Counted from the first letter of the stretch, positions 6,790-35,995 are shown. The stretch: DNA of 52,411 nt from Candidatus Omnitrophica bacterium CG_4_8_14_3_um_filter_43_15 (GCA_002783585.1 PFHB01000003.1:1-52411); one strand, 5' to 3'. Numbers and translations are program-made. The notes: generated from the letters alone by a model not told the origin.

Positions 6790-6864
6790 GTCCCTCGCGA
6801 CTAAACGAGATAGCTGGTCACTCGGGACAATTTTTTAAGATGTGATAACTGGAAAAATTGGAGG
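6790..6864 (+). promoter_or_regulatory. Double-hairpin leader, element 1
   Basis: Hairpin A: GTCCC (6790-6794), UC/UC internal loop, GCGAC against GTCAC with one mismatch, GGGAC (6824-6828). Hairpin B: AATTTTT (6829-6835) against AAAAATT (6853-6859). GGAGG follows at 6860-6864, 8 bases before the ATG at 6873. The hairpin A loop contains GAGATAGCTGGT (6807-6818). Confidence 0.7.
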
Positions 6865-6872
6865 TGATTTTT

Positions 6873-7187
6873 ATGAAGAGGATTATGACAGTAGTAGCAT
6901 TAACAGCGCTTGTTATGTTTGTTTTTTCAGGTATTTCTTACGTTGTGTGCGGCACCTGTTATGCAGGCGAGAAGACAAATGTTAATGGCGGTCAGGTTGA
7001 TGCAGCGGCGCTTGTGCCTATAAATAGGACATGCCCTGTAATGGGAGGGGAGATTTCAAAAGACACAGAATATTATGCTGTGGTCAATGGCGAGAAGATA
7101 GGTTTTTGCTGTGCGGGTTGTGTAGAAGCGTTTAACAAGGACCCGAAAAAATATACAGACAAGGTAAAGGCCGAACTGGCCAGTTAG
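6873..7187 (+). CDS. Exported YHS/TRASH-like metal-binding protein
   Basis: A 104-residue protein with an N-terminal hydrophobic signal (residues 5-24) followed by CGTC. The C-terminal part reads CPVMGG at 54-59 and FCCAGC at 78-83, then EAFNKDPKKY. This Cys arrangement (C54, C79, C80, C83) is that of YHS/TRASH domains, which bind transition metals such as copper or iron. It is the first gene after the 6745 promoter in a redox-stress cluster. I choose ATG 6873, 8 bases after GGAGG; the frame is open further upstream but only into the leader. The exact metal is unknown. Confidence 0.75.
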   Translation: MKRIMTVVALTALVMFVFSGISYVVCGTCYAGEKTNVNGGQVDAAALVPINRTCPVMGGEISKDTEYYAVVNGEKIGFCCAGCVEAFNKDPKKYTDKVKAELAS

Positions 7188-7192
7188 AGGAA

Positions 7193-7285
7193 GTCCCTCG
7201 TCCCGAGACGCCAGCACATAAAATGCTTGCGGCGAGGGGCTCGGGACGAATTTTACTACCCGTGATAGTGGGTAAAATTTGGAGG
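7193..7285 (+). promoter_or_regulatory. Double-hairpin leader, element 2
   Basis: GTCCC (7193-7197) pairs with GGGAC (7243-7247), TC lies opposite TC, and GTCCC (7200-7204) pairs with GGGGC (7236-7240). An extra GCC-AGCA/TGCT-GGC hairpin replaces the usual loop. Hairpin B: AATTTTAC (7249-7256) against GTAAAATT (7272-7279). GGAGG is at 7281-7285, 6 bases before the small ORF at 7292. It starts 5 bases after the upstream stop. Confidence 0.7.
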
Positions 7286-7291
7286 TGTAAT

Positions 7292-7375
7292 ATGAAAGTG
7301 ACTGTCAGATATATGCTGCGCCCGGTTGCGCACTGTAAAGAAGGTTGTAGTATTTTGTCCCTGGCAAGACATTAA
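7292..7375 (+). CDS. Small ORF, 27 residues, behind a strong leader
   Basis: The ORF starts ATG-AAA-GTG and encodes a 27-residue peptide beginning MKVTVRYMLRPVAH, with two Cys spaced CKEGC and a His near the end. It is preceded by a full double-hairpin leader and GGAGG at the ideal distance, which is the only reason to call it. It could be a short metal- or redox-active peptide, a leader peptide for the Rrf2 gene, or the remains of a longer gene cut off by the palindrome at 7396. I do not recognise the sequence. Confidence 0.4.
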   Translation: MKVTVRYMLRPVAHCKEGCSILSLARH

Positions 7376-7395
7376 ACTGCCACACTTTAAAATTT

Positions 7396-7424
7396 CGGGG
7401 ACACCTCTTAAAGAGGTGTCCCCG
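7396..7424 (+). repeat. Perfect 29-bp palindrome (GGGGACA...TGTCCCC)
   Basis: Arms CGGGGACACCTCTT (7396-7409) and AAGAGGTGTCCCCG (7411-7424) around a single A. It lies 14 bases upstream of the rrf2 start. The CTTAAAG centre and GGGG-NCA ends match the palindrome at 33983-34015. No T tract follows, so it is a poor terminator. Confidence 0.75.
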
Positions 7425-7438
7425 CCGAAAGCGAGAAC

Positions 7439-7849
7439 ATGAAGCTTATAACAAAAGATACTGATTACGCAATAAGAGCGCTTTGCTGCATAGCAAAAAA
7501 TAAGAAAAAGGGTGATATTGCCTGCGTGACAGATCTTGTTAAATGCCTTAAGATACCAAAGCCGTTTTTGCGTAAAATATTGCAGGCGCTGAATAAATGC
7601 GGCCTGCTTTTGTCGTTTAAGGGCCCATGCGGAGGGTTCAGATTGAATAAACCGGCAGATAAAATATTTATAACAGATATCATGCAGGTATTTCAGGGGC
7701 CTTTTATGCTTTGCGAGCATACATTTAAAACTGGGCCGTGCCATGATGTTAAAAAATGTATATTTAAGAAAAAACTGGATGCGATAGGAGTATATGTTAA
7801 AAAAGAGCTTGGCACTATAACGATAAAGGATCTGATAAAAGGGAGTTGA
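7439..7849 (+). CDS. Rrf2-family regulator with three-Cys Fe-S motif
   Basis: A 136-residue Rrf2 protein. The N-terminal winged helix starts LITKDTDYAIRALCCIA and its wing carries KGPCGGFRL. The cluster loop has C92, C101 and C107 (C-x8-C-x5-C), comparable to the three Cys that hold an Fe-S cluster in NsrR and IscR. Such proteins sense NO, iron-sulfur status or redox. It is followed after 2 bases by an Fe-S protein and then by NifU-like, Hcp and superoxide reductase genes, so it probably controls this cluster, perhaps through the operator at 6753-6773. Its start has no strong Shine-Dalgarno and may be translated poorly. Confidence 0.85.
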   Translation: MKLITKDTDYAIRALCCIAKNKKKGDIACVTDLVKCLKIPKPFLRKILQALNKCGLLLSFKGPCGGFRLNKPADKIFITDIMQVFQGPFMLCEHTFKTGPCHDVKKCIFKKKLDAIGVYVKKELGTITIKDLIKGS

Positions 7850-7851
7850 GT

Positions 7852-8694
7852 ATGGCAAAACGCAAGATAATAAAAATAGATTCTGATAAATGTAATGGCT
7901 GCGGGCTTTGTATACCTAATTGTCCTGAAGGCGCAATTCAAATGATAGATAAAAAAGCCAGGCTTATAAGCGATTTGTTTTGCGACGGGCTTGGCGCCTG
8001 CCTTGGGCATTGCCCGCAGGGTGCCATTACTATAGAGGAAAGAGAAGCCGTTGAATACGATGAGAAAAAAACAATGGAAAACATCGTAAAGCACGGTGAA
8101 AATACTATTAAGGCGCACTTAGAACATTTAAAAAGCCACGGCCAGGATAAATATTATAAGGAAGCGCTTGAGTTTTTAAAGGAAAGAGGGATAGATATGA
8201 AAGTAGAAAAACCAAAGCATGTTCATGGTGGTATGTCCGGATGCCCTGGTTCAAGGATGATGGACTTTACAAAAGAACAAGCAGGCGCAGGGGATGCAGA
8301 AGGCACAAGGCAGTCGCAGCTCAGGCAGTGGCCTATACAGTTACATCTTGTATCTCCAATAGCGCCGTATTTTCAGAAAGCAGATGTTTTATTGTCAGCG
8401 GATTGCGTTGCCTATACTGTAGGCGATTTTCATAAAGATTATCTAAAAGGAAAAAGTTTGGCGATTGCATGTCCGAAGCTTGACGAGGGCAAAGAGATTT
8501 ATATAGAAAAAATAAAATCTCTTATAGATGACGCAAAGATTAACACGCTTACTGTTATGACTATGGAGGTTCCTTGCTGCCATGGCCTGGTTGCTTTAGC
8601 ACAGGAGGCAGCGCAAACAGCAAAAAGAAAGATACCTATTAAATCTATGATTGTTAGTTTGAAAGGTAAGGTATTAAGCGAGGAGTGGTTATAA
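7852..8694 (+). CDS. Dicluster 4Fe-4S ferredoxin-domain protein next to hcp
   Basis: A protein of about 280 residues. The N-terminus has two cluster motifs: CNGCGLCIPNCPEG (C14, C17, C20, C24) and a second FCDGLGACLGHCPQGA. The C-terminal two thirds has conserved Cys clusters (SGCPGSRM, ACPKLD, VPCCHG) but no nucleotide loop I can see. Related proteins accompany hybrid cluster proteins in anaerobes and are thought to pass electrons to them; that is inference here. I start at ATG 7852, six bases after GGGAG, rather than at TTG 7846. Confidence 0.8.
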   Translation: MAKRKIIKIDSDKCNGCGLCIPNCPEGAIQMIDKKARLISDLFCDGLGACLGHCPQGAITIEEREAVEYDEKKTMENIVKHGENTIKAHLEHLKSHGQDKYYKEALEFLKERGIDMKVEKPKHVHGGMSGCPGSRMMDFTKEQAGAGDAEGTRQSQLRQWPIQLHLVSPIAPYFQKADVLLSADCVAYTVGDFHKDYLKGKSLAIACPKLDEGKEIYIEKIKSLIDDAKINTLTVMTMEVPCCHGLVALAQEAAQTAKRKIPIKSMIVSLKGKVLSEEWL

Positions 8695-8720
8695 TAAAGC
8701 CGATTTTAGAATATTTTGGT

Positions 8721-8773
8721 TTGTAACTTGTTTAATTTCAATGGGTTAAAATGCGGTGCCTGGCACCGGGAAA
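8721..8773 (+). repeat. Palindromic repeat, copy 2 (GGTGCCTGGCACC family)
   Basis: TTGTAAC at 8721, 18 bases, TTAAAATG, then CGGTGCCTGGCACCG at 8754-8768. It ends 12 bases before the NifU-like start, so it forms most of that gene's leader. Its middle 18 bases differ from copies 1 and 3. Confidence 0.7.
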
Positions 8774-8785
8774 GAGAGATAGAAA

Positions 8786-9016
8786 ATGGCGGATGATTTG
8801 AAGAAGAAAGTGGAAGCAGCGTTAAATACCATAAGGCCGCATTTACAGGCAGATGGAGGTGGTATAGAATTAGTATCTGTTGAAGGCGGAGTTGTTAAGG
8901 TTCGTCTTCAGGGCGCGTGCAGCGGATGCCCTATGTCGCAGATGACAATGGTTAATGGGGTTGAGAAGGCGATAAAAAAAGATGTGCCAGAGATAAAAAA
9001 GGTGGTTGCGGTTTAA
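8786..9016 (+). CDS. NifU-like C-terminal domain protein (Nfu-type Fe-S carrier)
   Basis: A 76-residue stand-alone NifU C-terminal domain. It has the signatures HLQADGGGIELV near residue 20 and CSGCP at 45-49; C45 and C48 hold a transferable [4Fe-4S] cluster between two subunits. It would deliver or repair clusters. Its position before hcp and after the Fe-S protein suggests service to these oxygen- and NO-sensitive enzymes. The length is complete for this type. Confidence 0.88.
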   Translation: MADDLKKKVEAALNTIRPHLQADGGGIELVSVEGGVVKVRLQGACSGCPMSQMTMVNGVEKAIKKDVPEIKKVVAV

Positions 9017-9042
9017 AGGCAGATTTAACAGGGGGTTAAAAT

Positions 9043-10341
9043 ATGTTTTGCGATCAGTGTGAACAAGCCGCAGGCGGCACAGGATGCGCGTCAAAAATCG
9101 GGACATGCGGGAAAAATGAAGATATACACAGCCTGCAGGATACATTAATATATGGTTTAAAGGGCATTGCCGCGTATGCGTATCATGCAAGAGAGTTTGG
9201 GGCAAGAGATGAAGAGGTTGATGCCTTTATGCACGAGGCGTTGTTTACTACGTTGACCAACGTCAGTTTTGATTTAAATCAGCACCTTGATATGGCGCTG
9301 CGTTGCGGTAGGATTAATCTTAAAATTATGGAATTACTTAACAATGCGCATACGAAGGCCTTTGGAAATCCTGTGCCAACAATAGTTGAAATAGTCACAA
9401 AGAAAGGCCCAGGTATATTAGTTACAGGCCATGACCTTTTGGCGCTGGAGAAACTTTTGAAACAGGCAGAACCTGAAGGCGTTAATATTTATACTCACGG
9501 TGAAATGCTGCCTGCTCACGGTTATCCGGGATTAAAAAAATTTAAGAATCTCGTAGGTAATTACGGTGGGGCATGGCAGGATCAGAAGGATGAGTTTAAA
9601 TATTTTAGCGGCCCTATTTTGATTACGACAAATTGTGTGCAGATACCGCATAAGGATACATACCTTGACAGGCTTTTCACTATGGGTATTACAGGTGTTC
9701 CCGGAGCAAAGCATATAACAGAAATGGATTTCAGCCAGATTATAAAAATGGCAAAATCACTGCCGCCTTTACTTGATACTGCAGGCACAAAGGTATCTAC
9801 AGGTTTTCATTATACAGCTGTTCTTGGGCTTGCTGATAAAATTAAAGCTGCTGTTACATCAGGCAAGATCAAGCATTTTTTCTTAGTAGGCGGATGTGAT
9901 GGGGCAAAGACCGGCAGAAGTTATTATACAGAGTTTGCCAAGATGGTGCCAAAGGATTGCGTTATTGTAACGCTTGCCTGCGGAAAATACAGGTTTAACA
10001 AATTGGATTTTGGCGATATAGATGGTATACCAAGGCTTATTGATGTTGGCCAATGCAATGACGCGTATTCGGCGATACAAATAGCCCTTGCTTTAGCAAA
10101 ACTTTTTGATACAGATGTAAACAAACTGCCGCTTAGCTTTGTGCTTTCATGGTATGAGCAGAAAGCAGTTGCCATATTGCTTACATTGTTGTATCTTGGT
10201 ATAAAGGGTATGTATATAGGTCCGACGCCGCCCGCATTTTTTACAAAAAATGTTTTACAGGTGGTGCAGGATAAGTTCGACCTAAGGCTTATAGGAAACC
10301 CAAGAAAAGACTTAGAAGAGATGTTGAGTAGGAAAAGATGA
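9043..10341 (+). CDS. hcp: Hybrid cluster protein (hydroxylamine/NO reductase), short class
   Basis: A 432-residue Hcp. The N-terminal Cys motif is C3, C6, C15, C22. All hybrid-cluster ligands can be placed: H130, E154, C198, C285, C313, C338 and E372, with K374 close by. At about 430 residues it belongs to the shorter class lacking the extra helical domain of the 540-residue enzymes. Hcp reduces hydroxylamine in vitro and NO in vivo and helps form protein S-nitrosothiols. A GGGGG-containing Shine-Dalgarno precedes the start. It sits with an Rrf2 regulator and superoxide reductase, a classic NO/O2 defence set. Confidence 0.93.
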   Translation: MFCDQCEQAAGGTGCASKIGTCGKNEDIHSLQDTLIYGLKGIAAYAYHAREFGARDEEVDAFMHEALFTTLTNVSFDLNQHLDMALRCGRINLKIMELLNNAHTKAFGNPVPTIVEIVTKKGPGILVTGHDLLALEKLLKQAEPEGVNIYTHGEMLPAHGYPGLKKFKNLVGNYGGAWQDQKDEFKYFSGPILITTNCVQIPHKDTYLDRLFTMGITGVPGAKHITEMDFSQIIKMAKSLPPLLDTAGTKVSTGFHYTAVLGLADKIKAAVTSGKIKHFFLVGGCDGAKTGRSYYTEFAKMVPKDCVIVTLACGKYRFNKLDFGDIDGIPRLIDVGQCNDAYSAIQIALALAKLFDTDVNKLPLSFVLSWYEQKAVAILLTLLYLGIKGMYIGPTPPAFFTKNVLQVVQDKFDLRLIGNPRKDLEEMLSRKR

Positions 10342-10418
10342 GTCCCTCGTCACTAAACGTGCTATCTGGTGACTCGGGACAAATTTTACAAATCGAGATA
10401 GCTGGTAAAATTTGGAGG
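10342..10418 (+). promoter_or_regulatory. Double-hairpin leader, element 3
   Basis: It starts directly after the hcp stop. Hairpin A: GTCCC (10342-10346) against GGGAC (10376-10380), UC/UC loop, GTCAC (10349-10353) against GTGAC (10369-10373). Hairpin B: AAATTTTAC (10381-10389) against GTAAAATTT (10405-10413), loop with GAGATAGCTGGT (10395-10406). GGAGG at 10414-10418, 8 bases before the ATG at 10427. Confidence 0.75.
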
Positions 10419-10426
10419 ATTTAACC

Positions 10427-10822
10427 ATGGCGGAATTAAAAGATTTATTTCAGAGCGCAGACTGGAAGGCGGAGAAACATGCCCCGGTAATAGACGCGCC
10501 GGAAAATATTAAAAAGGGCGAATTTTTTAAAATAACGGCAACCGTTGGCAAAAGTATAGCGCATCCAAACAAAACAGAACATCATATAGCGTGGATAGAG
10601 GTTTATTTTCAGGCAACAGGCGAAAAGTTTCCGTACCAGATAGTCAGGGCCGATTTCACAGCGCATGGCGCTTCAGCTCAGGGGCCTGACACAAGCAGTA
10701 TTTATACGTACCCGGAAGTTTCGGTTAGTTTTAAGACAGACAAGCCGGGCGCAATATACGCATCAAGCTATTGCAATATACACGGGCTATGGCAGGGATT
10801 GAAAGAGATAAAAATAGGTTAA
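10427..10822 (+). CDS. sor: Superoxide reductase (neelaredoxin / class II desulfoferrodoxin type)
   Basis: A 131-residue protein with every iron ligand of the superoxide-reducing centre: H18 after E16-K17, H46 in AHP, H52 in TEHH, C116 and H119 in YCNIHGLW. There is no N-terminal desulforedoxin domain, so it is the one-iron form. It reduces superoxide to peroxide without making oxygen, taking electrons from rubredoxin, which is encoded at 12318. The ATG at 10427 lies 8 bases after GGAGG. Confidence 0.93.
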   Translation: MAELKDLFQSADWKAEKHAPVIDAPENIKKGEFFKITATVGKSIAHPNKTEHHIAWIEVYFQATGEKFPYQIVRADFTAHGASAQGPDTSSIYTYPEVSVSFKTDKPGAIYASSYCNIHGLWQGLKEIKIG

Positions 10823-10828
10823 AATTAT

Positions 10829-11527
10829 ATGAAGCCGCAGAAAGCCATTGTTGTAAGTGTAATAAAAAGGGCAGAGTATGTAAGGAGCCTGCGTTTTTTA
10901 CCGGAGCAGCAGTTGCCTTTTAAGGCAGGCCAGTTTTTACGCCTTGAAATCGGAGAAAATAAGTTAAAGAGATATCTTTCGATTTCAAATTCTCCCACAG
11001 AGACAGGATATTTAGAGGTTACAAAGAAGCTTACAGGCAGCGATTTTTCAAAAGCGCTTGATGGTTTAAAATCAGGCGATACTGTGTTTATTGAGTATCC
11101 TATGGGTAGTTTTATCCTTGATGAGAAGCCGTTGAAAATAGCCTTTCTTTCAGGCGGTATAGGCATTACTCCGATAAGAAGTATGATAAAGTACGCCACT
11201 GATAAAAAACTCGACTTTAACATAGCTTTGCTATATGTGAATAAAACAGTGGATGATATAGTGTTCAGGCAGGATTTTGAGGATATGCAAGCAGCAAATC
11301 CGCAATTTAAACTTGTAAATGTGCTTAGCGAGCCTGCAGGCAGCATAGATTGTAAAATAGGCAGAATAGATAGCCATATAATAGAGGAAGCTATACCTGA
11401 TTTTGCTGAGAGAAGATTTTATATATGCGGACCGCCGGAGATGGTTAGCGCAATGAAAAATATACTGCTAAATGAATTGCATATGCCGACAGAGGCTGTT
11501 GTAACGGAAAATTTCCAAGGTTATTGA
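10829..11527 (+). CDS. Ferredoxin-NAD(P) reductase-like flavoprotein
   Basis: A 232-residue two-domain reductase. The FAD-binding barrel has the RYLSIS motif (R48-S51 plus IS). The NAD(P) domain has GGIGITPIRSM near residue 110 and YICGPPEM near 190. The C-terminus ends VVTENFQGY. There is no fused 2Fe-2S domain, so it probably reduces a separate carrier such as the rubredoxin at 12318 or the ferredoxin at 15377. It starts 6 bases after the superoxide reductase stop, which suggests it feeds that enzyme. Confidence 0.82.
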   Translation: MKPQKAIVVSVIKRAEYVRSLRFLPEQQLPFKAGQFLRLEIGENKLKRYLSISNSPTETGYLEVTKKLTGSDFSKALDGLKSGDTVFIEYPMGSFILDEKPLKIAFLSGGIGITPIRSMIKYATDKKLDFNIALLYVNKTVDDIVFRQDFEDMQAANPQFKLVNVLSEPAGSIDCKIGRIDSHIIEEAIPDFAERRFYICGPPEMVSAMKNILLNELHMPTEAVVTENFQGY

Positions 11528-11529
11528 GC

Positions 11530-11558
11530 TTGAATTTTTACGCGTAACATTGTATAAT
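11530..11558 (+). promoter_or_regulatory. Promoter of the ZIP transporter, probably leaderless transcript
   Basis: TTGAAT at 11530-11535 and TATAAT at 11553-11558 with a 17-bp spacer. The ATG at 11567 is only 8 bases beyond the -10 box and no Shine-Dalgarno is present, so transcription would begin at or next to the start codon. Confidence 0.6.
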
Positions 11559-11566
11559 AATTAACC

Positions 11567-12307
11567 ATGACCCTCCTATATATAATAATAAGCATATCCA
11601 TAGTAAGCCTTGTATCTTTAATAGGCATATTCACGCTTTTTATAAAAAAGCAGACATCCCTTGATAAAATCCTTTTTATACTGGTAAGTTTTGCCATAGG
11701 CTCGCTTTTAGGGGCTGCATTTCTTGATATATTGCCTGAGGCATTTGATGTAGCAGGCGAAAATATTTTCGTTTCCGTGCTTTTTGGTATAATGTTGTTT
11801 TTTATCATGGAGAAATTTCTGTTTTGGTATCATTGTCATAAGGGCGACTGTGATATTCATACATTCAAATATATGAACCTTATAGGCGATGGCATACATA
11901 ATTTCTTAGACGGCATGATAATAGCCACGGCGTTTATAACAAGCCGGTCATTGGGCATAATCACAACTATTGCAATACTGCTACATGAGATACCTCAGGA
12001 ATTGGGTGATTTTGGCATATTGTGTTACGGAGGTTTTAGCAGGATGAAGGCATTATTCTACAATTTTTTGACAGCGCTTACAGCGTTCTTGGGCGCTTTT
12101 ATTGTTTATATTTTTGCTGCCAGAATAGAGGGGCTTACCAGTCATATATTAGGTTTTGCAGCAGGCGGATTTATATATATAGCCTGCACAGACCTTATGC
12201 CTGAGCTGGGAAAAGAGATTAACCCGAAAAAGGCGTTGAAGCAGCTCATTTTTATATCTTTAGGCATAGCTTTGATCTGGGGCGGTAAACTGATATTTCA
12301 TAATTAA
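11567..12307 (+). CDS. ZIP-family divalent metal transporter
   Basis: A 246-residue membrane protein with about eight hydrophobic segments. Metal-binding helices are visible: HNFLDG (H111, N112, D115) and HEIPQELG (H140, E141, E145), the ZIP pattern for Zn, Fe or Mn import. The cytoplasmic loop between TM3 and TM4 has [10 protein letters not shown] (about 89-98), a likely metal-binding stretch. It is embedded in an iron-rich redox cluster, so iron or manganese supply is possible; the metal cannot be told from sequence. It has its own promoter. Confidence 0.88.
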
Positions 12308-12317
12308 AGTAGTTGTT

Positions 12318-12479
12318 ATGAAAAAATACAGATGTACGATTTGTAATTATATATATGACCCTGCAAAGGGAGATCCTGATAACGGCGTAAAACCAGGCAC
12401 TGCCTTTGAAAATATTTCTGATACATGGGTTTGTCCGGAGTGCGGCGCAGGAAAAGATCAGTTTGTAATGGAAGGATAA
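12318..12479 (+). CDS. Rubredoxin
   Basis: A 53-residue rubredoxin of normal length. It has both iron-binding pairs, CTIC (6-9) and CPEC (39-42), and the core [18 protein letters not shown]. It carries one electron at a mononuclear iron and is the usual donor for both superoxide reductase and flavodiiron protein, which flank it here. Its stop is one base before the flavodiiron start, so the two are translated together. Confidence 0.95.
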
Positions 12480-12480
12480 T

Positions 12481-13680: not shown

Positions 13681-14135
13681 AGCTCAATGAAGATGTGATA
13701 GATTTTTTTAATAAACAAAACTTTGTGATTGTATCTACCATAGATAAAAATGCAGCCCCGCATTCTTCCTGTAAAGGCATAGTAAAAATAGATCCCAAGG
13801 GAATTATATATCTTCTGGATCTTTATAAAGGCAAAACGCGAAAAAATCTCGCGAATAATAACAAAACAAGCTTAACAGCAGTTGATGAGCATAAATTTAA
13901 GGGGTATTGCCTTAAGGGTACAGCCAGTGAAATTGCGGCGGCGGATATTGATGCGGATGTTGCGGATGAATGGAAAAAAAAGATAACCCAGAGGATAACG
14001 CACAGGCTGATTAAGAATATTCACGGCGAGAAAGGCCACCCATATCATCCTGAAGCGCAAATGCCGCGCCCGGAATATATTATCAGGATGGATGTGGAAG
14101 AAGTTATTGACCTTACGCCGCAGCATTTAAAATAA
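13677..14135 (+). CDS. Pyridoxamine-phosphate-oxidase-like split-barrel protein
   Basis: A 152-residue FMN-binding split-barrel protein. It opens with the typical FFNKQNFVIVSTIDKNAAPHSS strand pair and continues IYLLDLYKGKTRKNLANNNKTSLTAVD. Such proteins bind flavin or F420 and act as small oxidoreductases. Start and preceding stop overlap (ATGA) with the flavodiiron gene, so it probably belongs to the same response. Its substrate is unknown. Confidence 0.75.
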   Translation: MKLNEDVIDFFNKQNFVIVSTIDKNAAPHSSCKGIVKIDPKGIIYLLDLYKGKTRKNLANNNKTSLTAVDEHKFKGYCLKGTASEIAAADIDADVADEWKKKITQRITHRLIKNIHGEKGHPYHPEAQMPRPEYIIRMDVEEVIDLTPQHLK

Positions 14136-14148
14136 CAGGAGAAAATAT

Positions 14149-15296: not shown

Positions 15297-15307
15297 GGAA
15301 GTTTTTC

Positions 15308-15378
15308 GTCCCTCGCCACTAAGTGAGATAGCTGGTGGCTCGGGACAATTTTTACAAATGAGAGAGGAGGTAAAAATT
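15308..15378 (+). promoter_or_regulatory. Double-hairpin leader, element 4 (variant enclosing the RBS)
   Basis: Hairpin A: GTCCC (15308-15312) against GGGAC (15342-15346), UC/UC loop, GCCAC (15315-15319) against GTGGC (15335-15339). Hairpin B: AATTTTTAC (15347-15355) against GTAAAAATT (15370-15378). Unlike the other copies, GGAGG (15366-15370) is inside hairpin B and the TTG start (15377) is in its 3' arm, so folding would hide both. Confidence 0.72.
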
Positions 15379-15562: not shown

Positions 15563-15592
15563 AAGCCAACTTTTTTACTCTTAACATTTTTC

Positions 15593-15635: not shown

Positions 15636-15641
15636 ATTGTT

Positions 15642-16039: not shown

Positions 16040-16106
16040 GTAGTAAAATTAACGCACTAGAATTCCCCCGACAAAATGGCAGAAAGAAAAAGAAAGGAAA
16101 TTTTCT

Positions 16107-18176: not shown

Positions 18177-18280
18177 TTCCCTCGCCGCGCCTCGTGATAA
18201 GAGGCGGCTCGGGATAAAATTTTGCCGAACACGGCATCCCGTGAACGGGACAAATCGAGATTACTGGAAAATTTCAGAGG
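18177..18280 (+). promoter_or_regulatory. Double-hairpin leader, element 5 (with 30-nt insert)
   Basis: It begins at the base after the channel stop. Hairpin A: TCCC (18178-18181) against GGGA (18211-18214), UC/UC loop, GCCGC (18184-18188) against GCGGC (18204-18208), with an alternative CGCCTC/GAGGCG pairing. Hairpin B: AAATTTT (18217-18223) against AAAATTT (18268-18274). Inside hairpin B are two extra hairpins, TGCCG/CGGCA and TCCCG/CGGGA. AGAGG at 18276-18280. Confidence 0.68.
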
Positions 18281-18286
18281 TGAAAA

Positions 18287-19617: not shown

Positions 19618-19692
19618 GCCCCTCGCCGCAAAACGCGATTAGAAGCGGCTCGGGACAATTTTACTAAACGAGATAGCAGGTAAAATCGGAGG
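19618..19692 (+). promoter_or_regulatory. Double-hairpin leader, element 6
   Basis: Hairpin A: GCCCC (19618-19622) against GGGAC (19652-19656) with one mismatch, UC/UC loop, GCCGC (19625-19629) against GCGGC (19645-19649). Hairpin B: ATTTTAC (19658-19664) against GTAAAAT (19680-19686). GGAGG at 19688-19692, six bases before the ATG at 19699. Confidence 0.72.
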
Positions 19693-28787: not shown

Positions 28788-28813
28788 TAAAACTAAAAAG
28801 TTAGATTTTAAAC

Positions 28814-28841
28814 TTGCTTTTCCTCTATATTGTGATATAAT
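28814..28841 (+). promoter_or_regulatory. Promoter of the GH/CBM-like cluster
   Basis: TTGCTT at 28814-28819 and TATAAT at 28836-28841 with a 16-bp spacer. The ATG at 28856 is 14 bases beyond the -10, so the leader is only about seven bases and has no Shine-Dalgarno. Confidence 0.5.
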
Positions 28842-28855
28842 ATATACACTGTTAT

Positions 28856-31123
28856 ATGAAAAAACAATCTAATAAATATAATACATTTATAATCTCGCTG
28901 TCGCTTGTGGGCTCAATGGTTTTATTGGGCCTTGGCGCTGACGTATTTTCTGTCAGTTGGAGGCAGCTTATAAAACCCGTATTTGTAAAAGAGGTTAAAA
29001 AGGAGGGTGTGGATTTTATTCTTGTTGATGATTTTGAAAAAGGCCAGTCCTCAGGCGTATTTTATGAGAGAAAAAATTCAATAGGGGGTTATCAGGGCAC
29101 ATGGGCAAAAAGGCCCTCGTATTCGATAATAACCAAGCTATCTGATGAAAGAGATTCTGCAAGAGGAAGATACCTGGCGATAGAATACAAAAAAGAGGCC
29201 GGCTGGGCTGGTTGGTATACGCTTTTAAATAACGCCGATATAAGTAATTATAATGCGCTTACGTTCTGGGTAAAGGGCGATAAGGGCGGCGAGAAATTTG
29301 ATATAGGCCTTGCTGATGCCAAGATGCAGGAGTTTCAGATGGACGCTGTTTACGCCGGGCCGATAGATTTGTTTTTGCCGTTAGGCGTTACAACCGAATG
29401 GCAGAAGGTAAAGATACCTGTTTCAAGGGTGGAATCGCAGATAGATTTAAATAAAATGGGTTCGATCGTGCTGTGGTTTAAATACGGCGGCGAGGGCAAG
29501 GTTTATATAGATGATATGGAGTTTGAATCCGATAAAGAGGTGCAGAAAAAAGAGGCATTTAATTCCCCTAAAGCCAATTTTGATCCCAAGCATCCGCGTT
29601 CTCTGTGGGTATGGAAGGTTGATCCGGTTACAAATCAGAAAGGCCGCAAGGAGCTTCTTCAATTATGTAAAGATGCAGCCATTACAAATATGTACCTTTA
29701 TTTCGGCGACTTTGACCCGGAAAAAGAGCCTGAATACGCTTCGGGGCTTGCTGATTTTTTAAAAGAGGCGCATAAGTTTGGCATTAAGGTTGAGGCGCTT
29801 ACCGGAAATCCGGTATGGACCCTTAAAGTATATCATCAATCATGCCTTGACTGGATAGATGCATTTTTGAAATTTAACAAGACAAGGCCGCAGAATGAGC
29901 GCATAGACGGGGTATCCCTGGATGTGGAGCCATATCTTACGTCTGAATGGCAGTCAGACACTGATAGGGTCAGGTCAGATTATATTGATCTGCTTAAAAA
30001 GGTAAGAAAGCTTGTTTTAAGATATAACCAGGAGTTTAAGATAGGGGTTGCCATACCTCATTTTTATTCTGAAATAGACAAAGGAAAATTTGAAGAAAAA
30101 ACACTTGAACTGGTTGATTACGCGGCTGTTATGGCATATTATGACGATCCAAACAAGATAATAGAAAAATCCGCCCCGCATTTTGTTATAGCCGACAAAC
30201 TGGGCAAAAAGATAAGCATAGGAGTTGAAACCCAGGACCTGATAGCATTAAATCAGGGCGAGCGCCGGCAGACGTTTTTTGAGGAGGGTTGGGAAGAGAT
30301 GGAGGATTCGCTGGCGCAGGTTTCAAAGAAATTTAAATCGCATCCATCTTTTGAAGGATTTGCCATACATTGTTATTACAGTTATAAACTGCTTCAGAGG
30401 GGGCGCAATGTTCCGATAAAACAGCGGCCCAAGGACATATATTCTATTGTTTCCAAGCGAAGGCTTTCCAATATTAAGATAGACGGTAATTTGTCAGACT
30501 GGGACCTTTCTTCTATGTATGCGGTTGATAAGAAGGTAAACGTGGTGTACGGCCAGTTTTCCTGGGCAGGGCCAAATGATTTAAGCGCCAAGATTTACAG
30601 CATGTGGGATGACGGCAATCTTTATTTTGCTTTTGATATTACAGACGATGTAATAGAGCAGGAAAAGGCAAAACATGATTTATGGGAAGGCGATCATATA
30701 GAGATGTGGCTTGATATGAATCTTATGGCGGATTACAACGAGGCCATAAATTCCAATGATGATTACCAGTTTGGGTTTTCACCCGGTAATTTAAAAAAAT
30801 TAAAATCCGAGGTATATACCTGGACGCCTGAATTAAGCAATATGGACTATACGAAAGAAATAGAGATTGCCTCAGCGAAAACCGAAAAAGGTTATGTTAT
30901 AGAAGTAAAGCTGCCGGCGCGCGTTTTATATGCCAGCAGGGACACCAGGCAGCCGGTAAATCTTCGCCGGTCAGTATGGTTTAAAAATGGGGACAAATTC
31001 GGCATAAGTGTTGACCCTAGCGATTGCGATGATCCGGCGGCGCCGCAGAAGGTGCTTATGTCGTCTTCTGTTAGCAGGGCATGGGGCGATCCGACGACAT
31101 TTGGAATATTGGAGCTTAAATGA
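28856..31123 (+). CDS. Secreted CBM-like / GH18-like barrel / CBM9-like protein
   Basis: A 755-residue protein with an N-terminal membrane or signal helix (about 13-33). A jelly-roll domain at about 55-225 opens LVDDFEKGQSSG and closes GKVYIDDMEFE. A barrel at about 245-525 opens HPRSLWVWKVD and contains DGVSLDVE at 351-358, the spacing of the GH18 DGxDxDxE motif with the middle Asp replaced by Ser. A CBM9-like domain from about 540 opens IKIDGNLSDW and includes WEGDHIEMWLD. A role in carbohydrate binding or cleavage is inferred. It overlaps the next gene by 4 bases. Confidence 0.72.
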   Translation: MKKQSNKYNTFIISLSLVGSMVLLGLGADVFSVSWRQLIKPVFVKEVKKEGVDFILVDDFEKGQSSGVFYERKNSIGGYQGTWAKRPSYSIITKLSDERDSARGRYLAIEYKKEAGWAGWYTLLNNADISNYNALTFWVKGDKGGEKFDIGLADAKMQEFQMDAVYAGPIDLFLPLGVTTEWQKVKIPVSRVESQIDLNKMGSIVLWFKYGGEGKVYIDDMEFESDKEVQKKEAFNSPKANFDPKHPRSLWVWKVDPVTNQKGRKELLQLCKDAAITNMYLYFGDFDPEKEPEYASGLADFLKEAHKFGIKVEALTGNPVWTLKVYHQSCLDWIDAFLKFNKTRPQNERIDGVSLDVEPYLTSEWQSDTDRVRSDYIDLLKKVRKLVLRYNQEFKIGVAIPHFYSEIDKGKFEEKTLELVDYAAVMAYYDDPNKIIEKSAPHFVIADKLGKKISIGVETQDLIALNQGERRQTFFEEGWEEMEDSLAQVSKKFKSHPSFEGFAIHCYYSYKLLQRGRNVPIKQRPKDIYSIVSKRRLSNIKIDGNLSDWDLSSMYAVDKKVNVVYGQFSWAGPNDLSAKIYSMWDDGNLYFAFDITDDVIEQEKAKHDLWEGDHIEMWLDMNLMADYNEAINSNDDYQFGFSPGNLKKLKSEVYTWTPELSNMDYTKEIEIASAKTEKGYVIEVKLPARVLYASRDTRQPVNLRRSVWFKNGDKFGISVDPSDCDDPAAPQKVLMSSSVSRAWGDPTTFGILELK

Positions 31124-32259
31124 GAAAGATTTTATTTTTCATAATATTTTTCATATCAACGGCTGCGTATGCCGCAACGGCGACTATAGAGCAGCTTCCC
31201 AAGCTGCCTGAGGGCACAGCGCTTTTTGAAAGTGAAAAAACATTCGGCAGAAGGGGCAAGCTCGGAGGTTTTGCTTTAAAACCCAGTAAATACGGCATAT
31301 TTTATGACGACAAACAGGGTGGCGCCATAAAGATGATGTATCTGAAGCCGAATGATAAAACTTTCTGCGGCACATACGTTATACTAATGGCCGATCTTTC
31401 AAATTATGCGTCGCTTACATTTATGGTTAAAGGCAAAACAGGCAACGAGGCATTTGAGATAGGACTTAATGATACTATATCAAATAAACGCGAAGACGCT
31501 GTTATGGTGGGTTCTATCTACAGGTATCTGCCAGAGGGCGCTACAACCGAATGGCAGAAGGTGGTTATATCTCTGGCGGATTTTTACGGTTCAGATATGC
31601 ATAAGGTTTACAGCCTTATATTTCATTATAATGAAATCGGCACAGGCGCTTTCTGGATAAAAGATATCCAGTTCCATACTGAACATTTATTTAACATAGA
31701 GGATGAAATATATAAAAAGGGTTATCTGCTGCTTGATAATTTTGATCATAACGACTTGAACCTTCTCGGAAGAAAGACAAATACATACAAAAAACTTCCT
31801 TCTATTTGTGAATCTGAAAGGGCCGAAGATGCGTTTCTCGGCGGCAAGGAAAGGGCGCTTAAGCTTATATATGACAAACAATCCACCGGCTGGGCCGGTT
31901 ATTTTACACTGCTTAACCAGATAGACGGAGAGTATTTTGACCTGAGTAAATATAAAGACGTGTCATTCATGATAAAAGGCGCAAAAGGCGGCGAAACATT
32001 CCAAATTGGAATGGCGGATAGAAACTGGATTAATATCGGCGACTCTCTTAAGGCAGGCCAGATAGAGGATTTTTTACCCGGAGGCGTTACAACAGATTGG
32101 AAAGAGGTTACAATACCTTTGAGTAAATTCGGCTCGCTTGACTTTACCCAAATGGGTTCATTTGTCATAGATTTTAACAAGAAACAAAAAGGCGTTATTT
32201 ATATAGATAATCTGAGATTTACACTTAAAACTAAAGAAGAGTTGTTGGCGGAATGGTAG
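31120..32259 (+). CDS. Exported protein with two jelly-roll CBM-like domains
   Basis: A 379-residue protein. The signal peptide ends near residue 17 (TAAYAA). Two copies of the domain seen in the previous gene follow, at about 25-190 and 200-370. Shared landmarks are LTFMVKGKTGNEAFEIGL and VSFMIKGAKGGETFQIGM, the TTEWQKVVI/TTDWKEVTI strand and the final IYIDNLRF. No catalytic domain is visible. It probably binds a polymer together with its neighbours; the ligand is unknown. Confidence 0.7.
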   Translation: MRKILFFIIFFISTAAYAATATIEQLPKLPEGTALFESEKTFGRRGKLGGFALKPSKYGIFYDDKQGGAIKMMYLKPNDKTFCGTYVILMADLSNYASLTFMVKGKTGNEAFEIGLNDTISNKREDAVMVGSIYRYLPEGATTEWQKVVISLADFYGSDMHKVYSLIFHYNEIGTGAFWIKDIQFHTEHLFNIEDEIYKKGYLLLDNFDHNDLNLLGRKTNTYKKLPSICESERAEDAFLGGKERALKLIYDKQSTGWAGYFTLLNQIDGEYFDLSKYKDVSFMIKGAKGGETFQIGMADRNWINIGDSLKAGQIEDFLPGGVTTDWKEVTIPLSKFGSLDFTQMGSFVIDFNKKQKGVIYIDNLRFTLKTKEELLAEW

Positions 32260-32264
32260 ATGTC

Positions 32265-32370
32265 GTCCCTCGTCACTAAACGTGATAGCGGGTGACTCGG
32301 GACGAATTTTGCCGAACACGGCATCCCGTGAACGGGACAGCCAAAAAGATTCTACTGGAAAATTCGGAGG
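32265..32370 (+). promoter_or_regulatory. Double-hairpin leader, element 7 (with 30-nt insert)
   Basis: Hairpin A: GTCCC (32265-32269) against GGGAC (32299-32303), UC/UC loop, GTCAC against GTGAC. Hairpin B: GAATTTT (32304-32310) against AAAATTC (32359-32365). The same two-hairpin insert as in element 5 lies at 32310-32339. GGAGG at 32366-32370, five bases before the ATG at 32376. Confidence 0.73.
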
Positions 32371-32375
32371 TAAGT

Positions 32376-32990
32376 ATGAAAAAAATATTATTAATTGCGT
32401 CAGTGTTTATTTTATTATTCAGTTCAGTGGTTTATGCCAAAGATGCGGCGCAAGTTTTTCTTTTGGATGATTTTGAGAAAGCAGGCAATCTCGTAGGCGG
32501 AAAATCGAATACTTACGAAAAAGAACCTTCAAAGTCGCTTGCTATGCGTGTTTCAGAAGAGTTTTACGGGAACGCAGGCAGGTCTCTTATGATAAAGTTC
32601 GACAAAAAGTCAGAGGGCGGGCTGTATGGCACAGGCGGATGGTGCGGTTATTATACAATGCTGCGCTCAGGCGCGAAATATTTCGACATAACGCCGTATA
32701 AAACGCTGACTTTTCAGGTAAAAGGGGTAAAGGGCGATGAAAATTTTAAGATAGGGCTCGCTGACAGGCATTGGGAGGAATTGGGGGATTCTGTAAAATC
32801 CGAAGATGTAGTTAAATATATTCCCACGGGAAAGATTACAACCGAATGGCAAAAGGCCGTTGTCCCGCTGGATGTATTTTTTCTGGATAAAAAAGAAGTT
32901 TCCTCGCTTGCCTTTTGTTTTGAGAGCGAGTCATTTGCTACCGGTAGCGCCAAGGGTACTGTTTATATAGATGATTTAAGGTTGGAGTAG
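32376..32990 (+). CDS. Exported single-domain CBM-like protein
   Basis: A 204-residue protein: signal peptide (1-21, ending VVYAK), then one jelly-roll domain of the local family. Landmarks are LLDDFEKAGNLVGGKSNTYEK, GGWCGYYTML, LTFQVKGVKGDENFKIGLAD, ITTEWQKAVVPLD and a final VYIDDLRLE. It is closest to the product of the next gene (shared YIPTGKITTEWQKAVVP-like segment). I start at ATG 32376, five bases after GGAGG, although the frame is open further upstream in the leader. Confidence 0.72.
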   Translation: MKKILLIASVFILLFSSVVYAKDAAQVFLLDDFEKAGNLVGGKSNTYEKEPSKSLAMRVSEEFYGNAGRSLMIKFDKKSEGGLYGTGGWCGYYTMLRSGAKYFDITPYKTLTFQVKGVKGDENFKIGLADRHWEELGDSVKSEDVVKYIPTGKITTEWQKAVVPLDVFFLDKKEVSSLAFCFESESFATGSAKGTVYIDDLRLE

Positions 32991-33000
32991 GGGATGTGTA

Positions 33001-33077
33001 GTCCCTCGTCACTAAATGTGATAGCGGGTGACTCGGGACAAATTTTACTACCCGTGATAACGGGTAAAATTTGGAGG
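33001..33077 (+). promoter_or_regulatory. Double-hairpin leader, element 8
   Basis: Hairpin A: GTCCC (33001-33005) against GGGAC (33035-33039), UC/UC loop, GTCAC (33008-33012) against GTGAC (33028-33032). Hairpin B: AAATTTTAC (33040-33048) against GTAAAATTT (33064-33072), extended by CCCG/CGGG. GGAGG at 33073-33077, five bases before the ATG at 33083. Confidence 0.75.
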
Positions 33078-33082
33078 TAGTT

Positions 33083-33775
33083 ATGGATAGACGTTTTAAG
33101 TTTTCAGTTTTAAGCGTAATCGTGGCTTTAGCGATGGCTATGGTTACCGCAAGCAGTTCTGTATCGCTGGGTGAACAGGTGAAACCTGTTATAGTCGATG
33201 ATTTTGAATCAGGAACTATAGCAAATTCGCTTGGAGGCAAGACAAACGTTTTTATAAAGGCGCCTTCCAAGGCAATGGTTTCTTTTCGTAAAGACGTAAG
33301 GGCAGGAAAACCGACAGCAGTGCTTATGCTGCGCTATGAAAAAAAGGCAGAAGGCGGGCCGTATGATTTAGGCGGTTGGTGTGGTTATTACACACTGCTT
33401 AAAAAAGTGCACCCTTCGGTTTCTCTACAGGGAGCCACTGCGGTTGAAATCGAGGAAGATGTTTATTTTGACGCCTCTAACCACAGCGCTATAACCATGT
33501 GGGTTAAAGGAGATAAGGGCAATGAGAATTTTATGCTGGGCGTTGCCGATGCCCATTGGGATAAGATAGGTGATTCTGCAAAGAGCCAGGAAATAGGCAA
33601 GTATCTTCCCACGGGCAAGATAACTACGGAATGGCAGAAGGCTGTTGTTCCTATGGATGAGTTTTTTATCGATTACTCGAAATTCTCTTCCATTGCCATA
33701 TCCTTCGAAAGCGATTGTTTTCCTGAAGGACAGGGTTCAGGCAGGATTTATATAGACGACATAGCGTTTGAATAG
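33083..33775 (+). CDS. Exported single-domain CBM-like protein, paralog
   Basis: A 230-residue protein with a signal peptide (about 1-30) and one jelly-roll domain: IVDDFESGTIANSLGGKTNVF, GGWCGYYTLL, ITMWVKGDKGNENFMLGVAD, GKITTEWQKAVVPMD, and a closing IYIDDIAFE. It is the nearest paralog of the preceding gene and probably a tandem duplication that took the leader element with it. It differs by an extra loop of about 20 residues after YYTLLKK. Function is unknown beyond likely ligand binding outside the cytoplasm. Confidence 0.72.
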   Translation: MDRRFKFSVLSVIVALAMAMVTASSSVSLGEQVKPVIVDDFESGTIANSLGGKTNVFIKAPSKAMVSFRKDVRAGKPTAVLMLRYEKKAEGGPYDLGGWCGYYTLLKKVHPSVSLQGATAVEIEEDVYFDASNHSAITMWVKGDKGNENFMLGVADAHWDKIGDSAKSQEIGKYLPTGKITTEWQKAVVPMDEFFIDYSKFSSIAISFESDCFPEGQGSGRIYIDDIAFE

Positions 33776-33776
33776 C

Positions 33777-33867
33777 CTACTTCGCCGTGATGCTTTCGCT
33801 CACGGCTTCGTAGCGCCTAATTGCTACGAAGCCTTTACCAGCGTTTTTCGAGCGTAAGGCGAAGTAG
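33777..33867 (+). repeat. Multi-hairpin intergenic repeat (CTACTTCGCC/GGCGAAGTAG)
   Basis: Outer arms CTACTTCGCC (33777-33786) and GGCGAAGTAG (33858-33867) enclose GCCGTGA/TCACGGC (33784-33790, 33800-33806) and GCTTCGTAGC/GCTACGAAGC (33805-33814, 33823-33832). It fills the gap before the next gene, as the double-hairpin leaders do, but the sequence family is different. Confidence 0.6.
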
Positions 33868-33888
33868 AAGCCAAGGAGGATGAAAAAG

Positions 33889-34878
33889 ATGGTCTTTGGG
33901 TTTATCAAAAGGATATCTTTATTTATTCTCCTTGGCGTTTTGTTTTGTGTAATATTTAATATGGGGTCAGGTTCATCTGCTGTTATGGGGTCAGGCTTAA
34001 AGCCTGACCCCATAACATTAGGCGAGCCGCCCAGGGCTATGTGGGTGTGGGATGCAAAGATATTTCAATATGAAGATGCTTCAGGGCGGCTTCTTAAATT
34101 CTGCAACAAATGGAATATAGGTACGATTTTTTATACAGCCTATAAGGTTACAGGAATAAATACCGAAAATGATTACCGCAGGTTTAATGCCCAGGCGCAT
34201 AAGCGAGGTATATTGGTACATGCCCTAGCAGGCGACCCCAGGTGGGGGCTTGAAAAATATCATCACAGATTTTTAGGCTGGGCAAATGATGTTTTGGAGT
34301 TTAATAGAAAGGCGCGGCCACAGGAAAGATTTGACGGCCTGCATGCCGATGTTGAGCCTTACCTGCTTGGTAAGATGTGGGAGCAATCAAAATCAAAAAT
34401 GTTAATAGAATACCTTGAGGCGTGCAGCAAAGTGAGAGAGCTTATTAAAGAGCAGCAAACCGGCATAATATTTGCAGTTGATCTGCCTTTTTGGTATGAT
34501 GATGATACTGATATGTGGGTAGAGTGGCGAAACAAAATGAGCCCGGCGAATTACCATGCGCTTGATATAGTTGATGAGATTGCTATTATGGATTACAGAA
34601 ATTTTGCGCAAGGCGAAAATGGCTCAATTTTACTGGCAAAAAATGAGATTGATTACGCTTCCGGCATTGGTAAGAAGGCGTATATAGGCCAGGAAACAAT
34701 TAAGGAGCTGCAGCCTGAATACATAACGTTCGGCGTAAAAGACGCAGATTACATGGAGCGTGAAATAAAAAAACTGGTAAACGTTTATATTGACAAGCCC
34801 GGTTTTAAGGGCATAGCCATGCATCATTATATAAGTTATAAAAAGCTTTTAAAGAAAAGTGGGAAGGCGGTAGAATGA
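33889..34878 (+). CDS. GH18-like barrel protein, exported
   Basis: A protein of about 329 residues. After an N-terminal hydrophobic segment comes a stretch encoded by GGGGTCAGG palindromes. The barrel opens PPRAMWVWDAKIFQ and carries DGLHADVE at 149-156, the same motif as the larger barrel protein at 28856, with His where GH18 has the middle Asp. Other shared blocks are VHALAGDPRWGLEKYHH and GFKGIAMHHYISYKKLL. I prefer ATG 33889 (nine bases after GGAGG); ATG 33880 directly abuts the Shine-Dalgarno. It overlaps the next gene by 4 bases. Confidence 0.68.
   Translation: MVFGFIKRISLFILLGVLFCVIFNMGSGSSAVMGSGLKPDPITLGEPPRAMWVWDAKIFQYEDASGRLLKFCNKWNIGTIFYTAYKVTGINTENDYRRFNAQAHKRGILVHALAGDPRWGLEKYHHRFLGWANDVLEFNRKARPQERFDGLHADVEPYLLGKMWEQSKSKMLIEYLEACSKVRELIKEQQTGIIFAVDLPFWYDDDTDMWVEWRNKMSPANYHALDIVDEIAIMDYRNFAQGENGSILLAKNEIDYASGIGKKAYIGQETIKELQPEYITFGVKDADYMEREIKKLVNVYIDKPGFKGIAMHHYISYKKLLKKSGKAVE
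33963..34015 (+). repeat. In-frame GGGGTCAGG repeat with perfect 33-bp palindrome
   Basis: GGGGTCAGGTTC at 33963-33974 is followed by the palindrome TTATGGGGTCAGGCTT (33983-33998) and AAGCCTGACCCCATAA (34000-34015) around one A. It codes for the stretch after the signal helix of the barrel protein. The CTTAAAG centre matches the palindrome at 7396. Confidence 0.8.
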
Positions 34879-35852
34879 TGATAAAACAGTGTTCAGTGTT
34901 CAGTGTCCAGGGGACAGGGGGCAGGGGGCGGAAATTTTGTTTAATATTATTTCTTTTCTGTACCCTGTACCCTGTACACTGTACCCTGTTAACGCCTCCG
35001 GCGTTTGCCGATGCCGTGTATCTTAATACAGGCGAGATATTGAAGGGCGTCGTGGTCGAGGAACATTGCGACAGGATAGTATTATCGACGTATAGAGGTG
35101 AAATCGATGTGTCAAAGGCGTCCATAGACCAGATATTTTTCGACAACGAAGAACAGAATTATACTTATCTTGGCGATAAGGCCTTTTCCGAAGGGGATTT
35201 TAACCTTGCTTTCGGGTTTTATCAGAGGGCGCTGCAGATAAATCCGGATTATCAGGCGGCAAAAAATTCTTTGCTCCGTTTAAATGACGCATTAGCCAGA
35301 GAAAAACTCGGCATAGCTAATAGCGAATTTCTAAAGCTCCTTAAAAAACAATTAGGGATATTTATAGCAAGGCGCAATGATAAAATAGAAGTGATTTCGG
35401 TTGATAATGATTCCGTTGCCTCAAAGTCCGGCATAAACAAAGGCGATTATATAAATAGCGTGTGGGGTTCTTCAGTCTTATATATGGATATTGAATCCGC
35501 TGCCAGGGTTATGGTTGGGGCAGATTCGACTCCTGTTATCCTGGGCATAGAGAAAAGTATTATTCTTCCGGTAAATCCGTTGCCCTGGTATAAAAGGATA
35601 TTCTTATTTTTAATGTTTAACGATTTCGGTTTTAGATTGGCGCTTAAACCTTCAGGATTAATAGTTTCATATGTGGATACGCATGGCATGGCAAAGCAGG
35701 CTGGCCTGGAAGCAAAAGATGAGATAATCTGTATAAATTCAGAGTCGGTAAGATATATGCCGGTATCAATGGTCAGGAGAAATATTTTTCAGAGCAGGCT
35801 TAGACATGTGGTGTTGACTGTAAAACGAAATGTAATCGCTATAAGGAAATAG
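34875..35852 (+). CDS. TPR and double-PDZ protein
   Basis: A 325-residue protein. A hydrophobic export signal is followed at about 52-95 by a small beta domain (VYLNTGEILKGVVVEEHCDRIVLST), a TPR pair at about 97-140 (YLGDKAFSEGDFNLAFGFYQRALQINPDY), and two PDZ domains at about 155-225 (IEVISVDNDSVASKSGINKGDYI) and 250-320 (LIVSYVDTHGMAKQAGLEAKDEI). No protease domain is present, so it is probably a scaffold. The signal region is encoded by CAGTGTTCAG/ACCCTGTAC microrepeats. The start overlaps the previous stop; ATG 34878 is equally possible. Confidence 0.7.
   Translation: MMIKQCSVFSVQGTGGRGRKFCLILFLFCTLYPVHCTLLTPPAFADAVYLNTGEILKGVVVEEHCDRIVLSTYRGEIDVSKASIDQIFFDNEEQNYTYLGDKAFSEGDFNLAFGFYQRALQINPDYQAAKNSLLRLNDALAREKLGIANSEFLKLLKKQLGIFIARRNDKIEVISVDNDSVASKSGINKGDYINSVWGSSVLYMDIESAARVMVGADSTPVILGIEKSIILPVNPLPWYKRIFLFLMFNDFGFRLALKPSGLIVSYVDTHGMAKQAGLEAKDEIICINSESVRYMPVSMVRRNIFQSRLRHVVLTVKRNVIAIRK
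34887..34990 (+). repeat. Microrepeats in a signal-peptide coding region
   Basis: A CAGTGTTCAGTGTTCAGTG run with GGGGACAGGGGGCAGGG (34887-34928) and a CTGTACCCTGTACCCTGTAC run (34959-34990) are roughly reverse complements of each other around an A/T-rich core. They are in frame and form the export signal of the PDZ protein. Confidence 0.6.
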
Positions 35853-35995
35853 TCCCTCGTCACTAAACGTGATAGCTGGTGACTTCCCTCGCAACTATAC
35901 GTCAAAAGTTGGTTGCTCGGGATGGTTTCAGCGTGTAAGCGCAGGAAACCACGGGACAGATTTTCAAATCGGAAGACAATGGAAAAATTTGGAGG
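35852..35995 (+). promoter_or_regulatory. Composite double-hairpin leader, element 9
   Basis: The outer GTCCC (35852-35856, its G being the last base of the upstream stop) pairs with GGGAC (35953-35957). Enclosed are TCAC/GTGA (35860-35863, 35879-35882), a complete second unit TCCC-TC-GCAAC (35885-35895) with GTTGC-TC-GGGA (35912-35922), and TGGTTTC/GAAACCA (35923-35929, 35945-35951). Hairpin B is weak (ATTTTC/GAAAAAT). GGAGG at 35991-35995, six bases before the ATG at 36002. Confidence 0.68.

Follow-up and report, generated by a model that had tools for sequence, protein, structure and literature searches.

The repetitive extragenic palindromic (REP) sequences and the bacterial interspersed mosaic elements (BIMEs) are imperfect palindromes of 20-40 bp that occur in many copies, mostly extragenic, often as inverted pairs, with a patchy distribution and often near REP-associated tyrosine transposases (RAYTs), and the tags GTAG and CGTC define their classes (PMC3733652). 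The pneumococcal BOX repeats are, in the excerpted account (PMC3049150), modular stem-loop repeats that are transcribed, nest in each other, lack a transposase of their own and are regarded as parasitic. The Correia/NEMIS repeats and other small miniature inverted-repeat transposable elements (MITEs) are non-autonomous and gene-adjacent, and their RNA hairpins can affect mRNAs (PMC2229807). Here we analysed a stretch of 52,411 nt (the window, always meant at its full length) from Candidatus Omnitrophica bacterium CG_4_8_14_3_um_filter_43_15, in which a unit of two adjacent hairpins, A and B, occurs nine times. We found no description of such repeats for the Omnitrophota in the open literature. 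Our preferred reading, to which we give a probability of about 60%, is that the unit is a non-autonomous, hairpin-dependent mobile repeat of the REP, MITE or BOX kind, with an unusual polar placement at functional RNA boundaries.

With the REPs the Omnitrophota unit shares an imperfect palindrome of 20-40 bp, a high copy number, an extragenic location, inverted pairs and a patchy distribution. However, it has two hairpins per unit, it shows no link with RAYTs and it has no tag, neither an unpaired GTAG nor an unpaired CGTC being consistent in the listed flanks of the copies. Furthermore, REPs are mainly found between genes or downstream of them, whereas the Omnitrophota repeats abut Shine-Dalgarno sequences and the ends of RNA genes with a fixed polarity. 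Like BOX, they are modular stem-loops with nesting, but BOX has other modules and the excerpted account reports no flush polarity to Shine-Dalgarno sequences or tRNA ends. The MITEs of the Correia/NEMIS type have terminal inverted repeats and target duplications, whereas here a constant TC/TC mismatch makes the inverted ends, GTCCCTCG against GTCCCGAG, imperfect, and we read no target duplication. The boxes of integron attC sites (RYYYAAC/GTTRRRY) were not evident by eye, no search for an integrase having been made. Finally, no Rfam covariance model matched, relaxed thresholds gave chance matches only, and this agrees with the initial annotation, in which the unit was not recognised as a known riboswitch.

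Structure and covariation of the two-hairpin unit

The initial annotation proposed nine copies of one design, and all nine were confirmed where it had placed them. The pattern [GAT][TC]CCCTCG..CTCGGGA[CT] had nine matches in the window, and 200 dinucleotide shuffles gave none. The parts of the nine copies, all on the plus strand, are the following:

6790-6828, plus strand: hairpin A of copy 1
6829-6859, plus strand: hairpin B of copy 1, followed by GGAGG at 6860-6864
7193-7247, plus strand: hairpin A of copy 2, with a nested reverse hairpin A (7200-7240, minus strand)
7248-7280, plus strand: hairpin B of copy 2, followed by GGAGG at 7281-7285
10342-10380, plus strand: hairpin A of copy 3
10381-10413, plus strand: hairpin B of copy 3, followed by GGAGG at 10414-10418
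15308-15346, plus strand: hairpin A of copy 4
15347-15378, plus strand: hairpin B of copy 4, with the Shine-Dalgarno sequence in its loop and a probable TTG start at 15377
18177-18215, plus strand: hairpin A of copy 5, diverged, outer ends T..T
18217-18274, plus strand: hairpin B of copy 5, with the GCCGAACACGGCATCCCGTGAACGGGAC double hairpin inserted
19618-19656, plus strand: hairpin A of copy 6, loop diverged
19658-19686, plus strand: hairpin B of copy 6, consensus loop
32265-32303, plus strand: hairpin A of copy 7
32304-32365, plus strand: hairpin B of copy 7, with the same inserted double hairpin as copy 5
33001-33039, plus strand: hairpin A of copy 8
33040-33072, plus strand: hairpin B of copy 8, followed by GGAGG at 33073-33077
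35852-35957, plus strand: hairpin A of copy 9, with a nested second hairpin A (35885-35922) and a GGTTTC hairpin (35923-35951)
35958-35990, plus strand: hairpin B of copy 9, diverged, read from the sequence and followed by GGAGG at 35991-35995

Hairpin A has the form GTCCC-TC-GNNNC-loop-GNNNC-TC-GGGAC, with the conserved ends GTCCCTCG and CTCGGGAC and an outermost pair that is G-C in some copies and A-T in others. Hairpin B, 0-1 nt downstream of A, has an AT-rich stem. It had been described as ATTTTAC..GTAAAAT throughout; actually TTTTAC..GTAAAA forms B in five copies only, whereas the stem of copy 6790 is AATTTTT..AAAAATT, copies 18177 and 32265 carry the inserted double hairpin and the B of copy 35852 has diverged. 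The variable but paired inner stem of A also stands, except that the TCCC/GGGG assigned to copy 7193 belongs to a second hairpin A that lies reversed inside the first; other copies of the same genome show this subtype too. In copy 15308, where GAGAGGAGG in the B loop is the Shine-Dalgarno sequence, the TTG at 15377, which overlaps B, is probably the start codon.

The source genome (G000) is a metagenome-assembled genome (MAG) of 1.28 Mb in 91 contigs, 93.9% complete, and its copies were studied from the genome stretches around each of them (labels with L). The strict pattern GTCCCTCG..CTCGGGAC matched 29 times genome-wide and its reversed control not once. The covariance model of hairpin A gave 96 matches at E<=1, and we give the copy number as around 90 because a few of these matches are one place read on both strands where copies are nested. 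Nesting occurs in both orientations, and the subtypes include a reverse A within A, a TGGGGACACACCTTAAAGGTGTGTCCCCA palindrome within the A loop and the GCCGAACACGGCATCCCGTGAACGGGAC double hairpin within the B loop. Within this genome A and B have the loop TAAACGWGATAGCKG in common, which the initial annotation did not mention; in other genomes the loop sequence differs. The same loop motif, with other stem ends, is also found within a different, larger repeat (L072 around 356 and L079 around 544).

Regarding covariation, 96.8% of the cells of the inner stem of A were paired in 37 sequences from several genomes, against at most 49% when the partner was slid, and both sides had changed in 52 cells, against 14.3 (sd 3.0) after shuffling. 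A cleaner test is that on the strict-pattern set, since the 37 sequences were picked by a structure-aware model and a pairing filter. Without any demand for inner pairing, 89 of 92 inner cells were paired in its 23 copies of simple length, whereas 20,000 shuffles gave 69 on average and never more than 80. The larger alignment holds strong covarying pairs in hairpin A and supports the one structured family of the initial annotation.

Placement at gene and RNA boundaries

The placement classes come from a simple open reading frame (ORF) and hairpin finder of our own, therefore single assignments may be wrong. Before mRNAs the copies are in sense and generally lie between the upstream stop codon and the Shine-Dalgarno sequence, with hairpin B ending at GGAGG; in a minority variant the Shine-Dalgarno sequence is in the B loop and the copy ends 0-2 nt from the start codon. 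The finder classified 88 matches of the source genome: 48 sense mRNA leaders, 9 sense copies at a tRNA 5' end, 7 antisense copies at a tRNA 3' end, 2 antisense to mRNA only and 22 others. By eye, the others include leaders (window copies 7193, 15308 and 35852, together with L044, L063, L068 and L083) and RNA-gene sites (L043 at the tmRNA 3' end and L070 beside the 23S rRNA gene). The sense orientation before mRNAs, next to a Shine-Dalgarno sequence, holds for all nine copies of the window, as first noted, and for the 48 leaders called automatically. It had also been claimed that each copy fills the gap just behind the upstream stop, which is right for eight of them, beginning -1 to 17 nt after the stop, but not for copy 6790, which begins 136 nt past the upstream stop (6653) and so leaves the gap unfilled.

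The downstream genes have no shared theme (ribosomal protein S2, lumazine synthase, MoxR, P-II, ferredoxin, CBM30 proteins), their names, other than Pfam hits, having been read off the translations. We discarded the idea that the leaders start at a promoter, since TATAAT-like boxes lie upstream in 5 of 41 (12%), near the control rate of 9%. The ORF after copy 7193 (ATG 7292, 7292-7375) stops after 27 codons and the next ORF runs from 7439; a frameshift, a pseudogene or an assembly error is possible.

At stable RNA genes the flush copies (0-2 nt) are in sense at tRNA and tmRNA 5' ends and antisense at the 3' ends of tRNA, tmRNA, 6S and 23S, which means that hairpin B always faces the RNA gene, at 5' and 3' ends alike. 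The distance from B to the tRNA 5' end in the source genome is mostly 0-1 nt, and in 5 of its 7 tRNA 3' cases the overlap of B with the tRNA is a single base, the last A of CCA (-1). Fewer than half of its 36 tRNAs carry a copy. The rrn operon reads 16S, tRNA-Ile, reversed copy, sense copy, tRNA-Ala, reversed copy, sense copy, 23S and reversed copy, the sense copy upstream of 23S lying around 100 nt from the 23S 5' end and not flush. A pairing of A-B with its own reverse copy, of the type cut by RNase III, was rejected, as the members of a head-to-head pair differ in stem and loop; nor is A-B the RNase III stalk, because the leader/trailer stalk of pre-23S is a separate pairing elsewhere.

In the other genomes the calls were 24 sense copies at tRNA 5' ends, 20 antisense at tRNA 3' ends, 42 sense before mRNAs, 5 antisense to mRNA only and 38 others, and among these classified copies hairpin A was never within 12 nt of a tRNA. 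One genome (G035) has flush copies at 6S (3') and tmRNA (5'). Several families of the class use the same kinds of site.

Two loci near tRNA sequences deserve mention. At L062 a tRNA-like 5' end is found past the element, after position 1870, where ARAGORN calls no tRNA, and the D-arm region seems to have received a hairpin. At L138 (G033, 1900-2200) two hairpin A copies are each preceded by a repeat of the first part of the initiator tRNA gene, its 5' part (CGCGGGGTGGA), and an intact initiator tRNA start lies further downstream.

Spread among genomes and turnover at orthologous gaps

All the genomes compared are MAGs. Hairpin A was found in 21 of 117 genomes of the Omnitrophota class and, in a draw over the phylum, in 40 of 285, all 40 listed under that same class. 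Carriers have mostly 1-15 copies, with at least 23 in G255 and dozens in two genomes, the source genome (around 90) and G035 (54 or more). The family is thus patchily distributed in one class of this uncultured phylum. In the scanned contigs of GTDB genomes a stricter stem-plus-loop pattern had a sole exact match, which belongs to a Candidatus Omnitrophica MAG. A viral origin was also considered and set aside, as viral contigs held no exact match. One carrier, Ca. Omnitrophica CG02_42_8 (G059), has two loop styles of hairpin A, one of them nearly identical to that of the source genome, and may be a mixed bin.

We compared orthologous gaps directly within one genus (g19), reading filled and empty boundaries and duplications by eye. 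For several gaps a single species has a copy and the others have none: those of an ATP synthase gene (query called atp) and rpsB in G096, glnB in G112 and bactofilin in G075. The moxR gap holds a copy in G018 and G075 and is empty in G112. The ribH gap has one in G075, G096 and the source genome and a decayed one in G018; the HAMP gap of G112 and the nrd gap of G018 also hold decayed copies. The empty sites already possess a Shine-Dalgarno sequence, AAATAAAACAAAGGAG of G112 corresponding to AAATAAAACAAG-[A-B]-GGAGG of G096. When filled sites were set against empty ones for atp, glnB, moxR, rpsB and bactofilin, taking out the element restored approximately the original length, and we therefore read no target duplication. 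A different palindrome occupies three of the gaps, moxR and ribH in G059 and rpsB in G112. Palindromes starting with GTAG (for example GTAGGGACAGCACAATGTGCTGTCCCTAC) were seen at L182 and L193 (G059) and L210 (G112), in gaps that hold the element in congeners.

Between orthologous copies (seven pairs of copies, a small sample in which the ribH pair may be a replacement and not descent) 10 of the changed stem pairs could still pair and 7 no longer could. Pairing is therefore weakly kept at single sites although the covariation of the family is strong, as would be expected if the fold matters more for spreading than for the host.

A proposed mobile repeat and the alternatives

The initial annotation offered a mobile unit as an alternative, and this fits better than its first idea, given the covariation across the family, the patchy spread with bursts of copies in two genomes, the filled and empty orthologous gaps, the nesting, the flush and polar placement and the weakly kept pairing at orthologous sites. 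New copies of the two-hairpin unit, with the conserved ends and covarying inner stem of A and the AT-rich B, as DNA or RNA, would arrive with fixed polarity and with B flush against a functional RNA boundary, be it a Shine-Dalgarno sequence or start codon, a tRNA or tmRNA 5' end or, in antisense, a tRNA, tmRNA, 6S or 23S 3' end. We propose that a copy would be tolerated and would join the leader or trailer because its insertion leaves the ribosome site or the mature RNA intact; later it would decay or receive further nested inserts. We infer that gain is through a transposition-like insertion, the machinery presumably recognising the folded hairpin and the effect on the host probably being mild. 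That the unit brings its own ribosome site is generally not so, because the empty sites already hold a Shine-Dalgarno sequence, and applies only to the minority variant with this sequence in the B loop.

Several observations speak against a mobile repeat. RAYT genes are common in the class but occur also in genomes without the element, and they are missing from three carriers (G001, G060 and G100). Apart from one weak partial match, the ten Y1 loci that were read had no flanking hairpin A. We saw no autonomous copy, the moxR and tRNA-Met orthologues show double changes with pairing kept, and some tRNA-end copies are common to congeners (L123/L128, L124/L130). Moreover, the exact flushness and one-way polarity are atypical of known REPs and MITEs and could reflect selection for function. 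As for a parent transposon with the same ends, none was among the flanks read, although no exhaustive search was made.

If the mobile reading is right, small mobile hairpins punctuate a bacterial transcriptome with nearly base precision and leave ribosome sites and stable-RNA ends unbroken, a natural parallel to engineered RNA insulators. They would also be a test case for insertion specificity that tracks RNA structure or RNA ends, a question that can be tested because one genus holds many filled, empty and decayed sites.

The main alternative, possible though clearly less probable, is a host element of RNA boundaries, whose hairpins would insulate, protect or mark the ends of mature RNAs or cistrons for processing, dispersal being secondary. 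The absolute polarity and the flush position at so many kinds of RNA end, the use of the same kinds of site in several families and the orthologous stems altered on both sides yet paired argue for it. However, most orthologues lack a copy, it was found in only 40 of the 285 genomes drawn from the phylum, fewer than half of the 36 tRNAs of the source genome have one, orthologous stems are broken nearly as often as kept, and the 23S stalk is separate from A-B.

A more doubtful proposal is that insertion itself is guided by RNA boundaries, the B end being joined to mature-RNA ends or to targets like the Shine-Dalgarno sequence by sensing either RNA ends or a C-rich 3' end of the opposite strand. 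Target-primed copying of element RNA, for example, would give an absolute B-inward polarity. On the opposite strand the junction often comes after such an end, as with the CCTCC complementary to the Shine-Dalgarno sequence, the CC of CCA and many of the tRNA 5' complements; since the 6S, 23S and ATG-flush cases fit this rule poorly, there is still room for functional selection or recognition of RNA ends.

That these are standard REPs moved by a RAYT (Y1/HUH) transposase is unlikely. The short imperfect palindromes, the inverted pairs, the lack of a target duplication and the frequency of RAYTs in the class would suit it, but the tags by which REPs are defined (PMC3733652) are absent, the presence of the element does not follow that of RAYTs, and the Y1 loci read have no A hairpins, those checked in the source genome adjoining other inverted repeats.

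Least probable of all is the main idea of the initial annotation, a cis-acting leader for translation control, here with the loop motif bound by a regulator. Despite the sense leaders next to Shine-Dalgarno sequences and the loop conserved in both hairpins of the source genome, we do not support translation control or mRNA stability alone as the main reading, because the same module abuts tRNA, tmRNA, 6S and 23S genes, where the copies at 3' ends are antisense, and because orthologous gaps of one genus have gained and lost it. Moreover, contrary to a riboswitch, its loop varies between genomes and mixed genes and RNA genes follow it.

Regarding other sequences met in these stretches, GC-rich relatives of hairpin A lie within long ORFs (L039 1801-1839 and L048 1801-1853) and are possibly coding insertions, by analogy with the Rickettsia palindromic elements. 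The 16S rRNA gene of the source genome is interrupted (L070, around 6100-6700, minus strand) by what looks like an intron coding for a LAGLIDADG homing endonuclease, with ..GYVTGEGCFYAE.. in its ORF.

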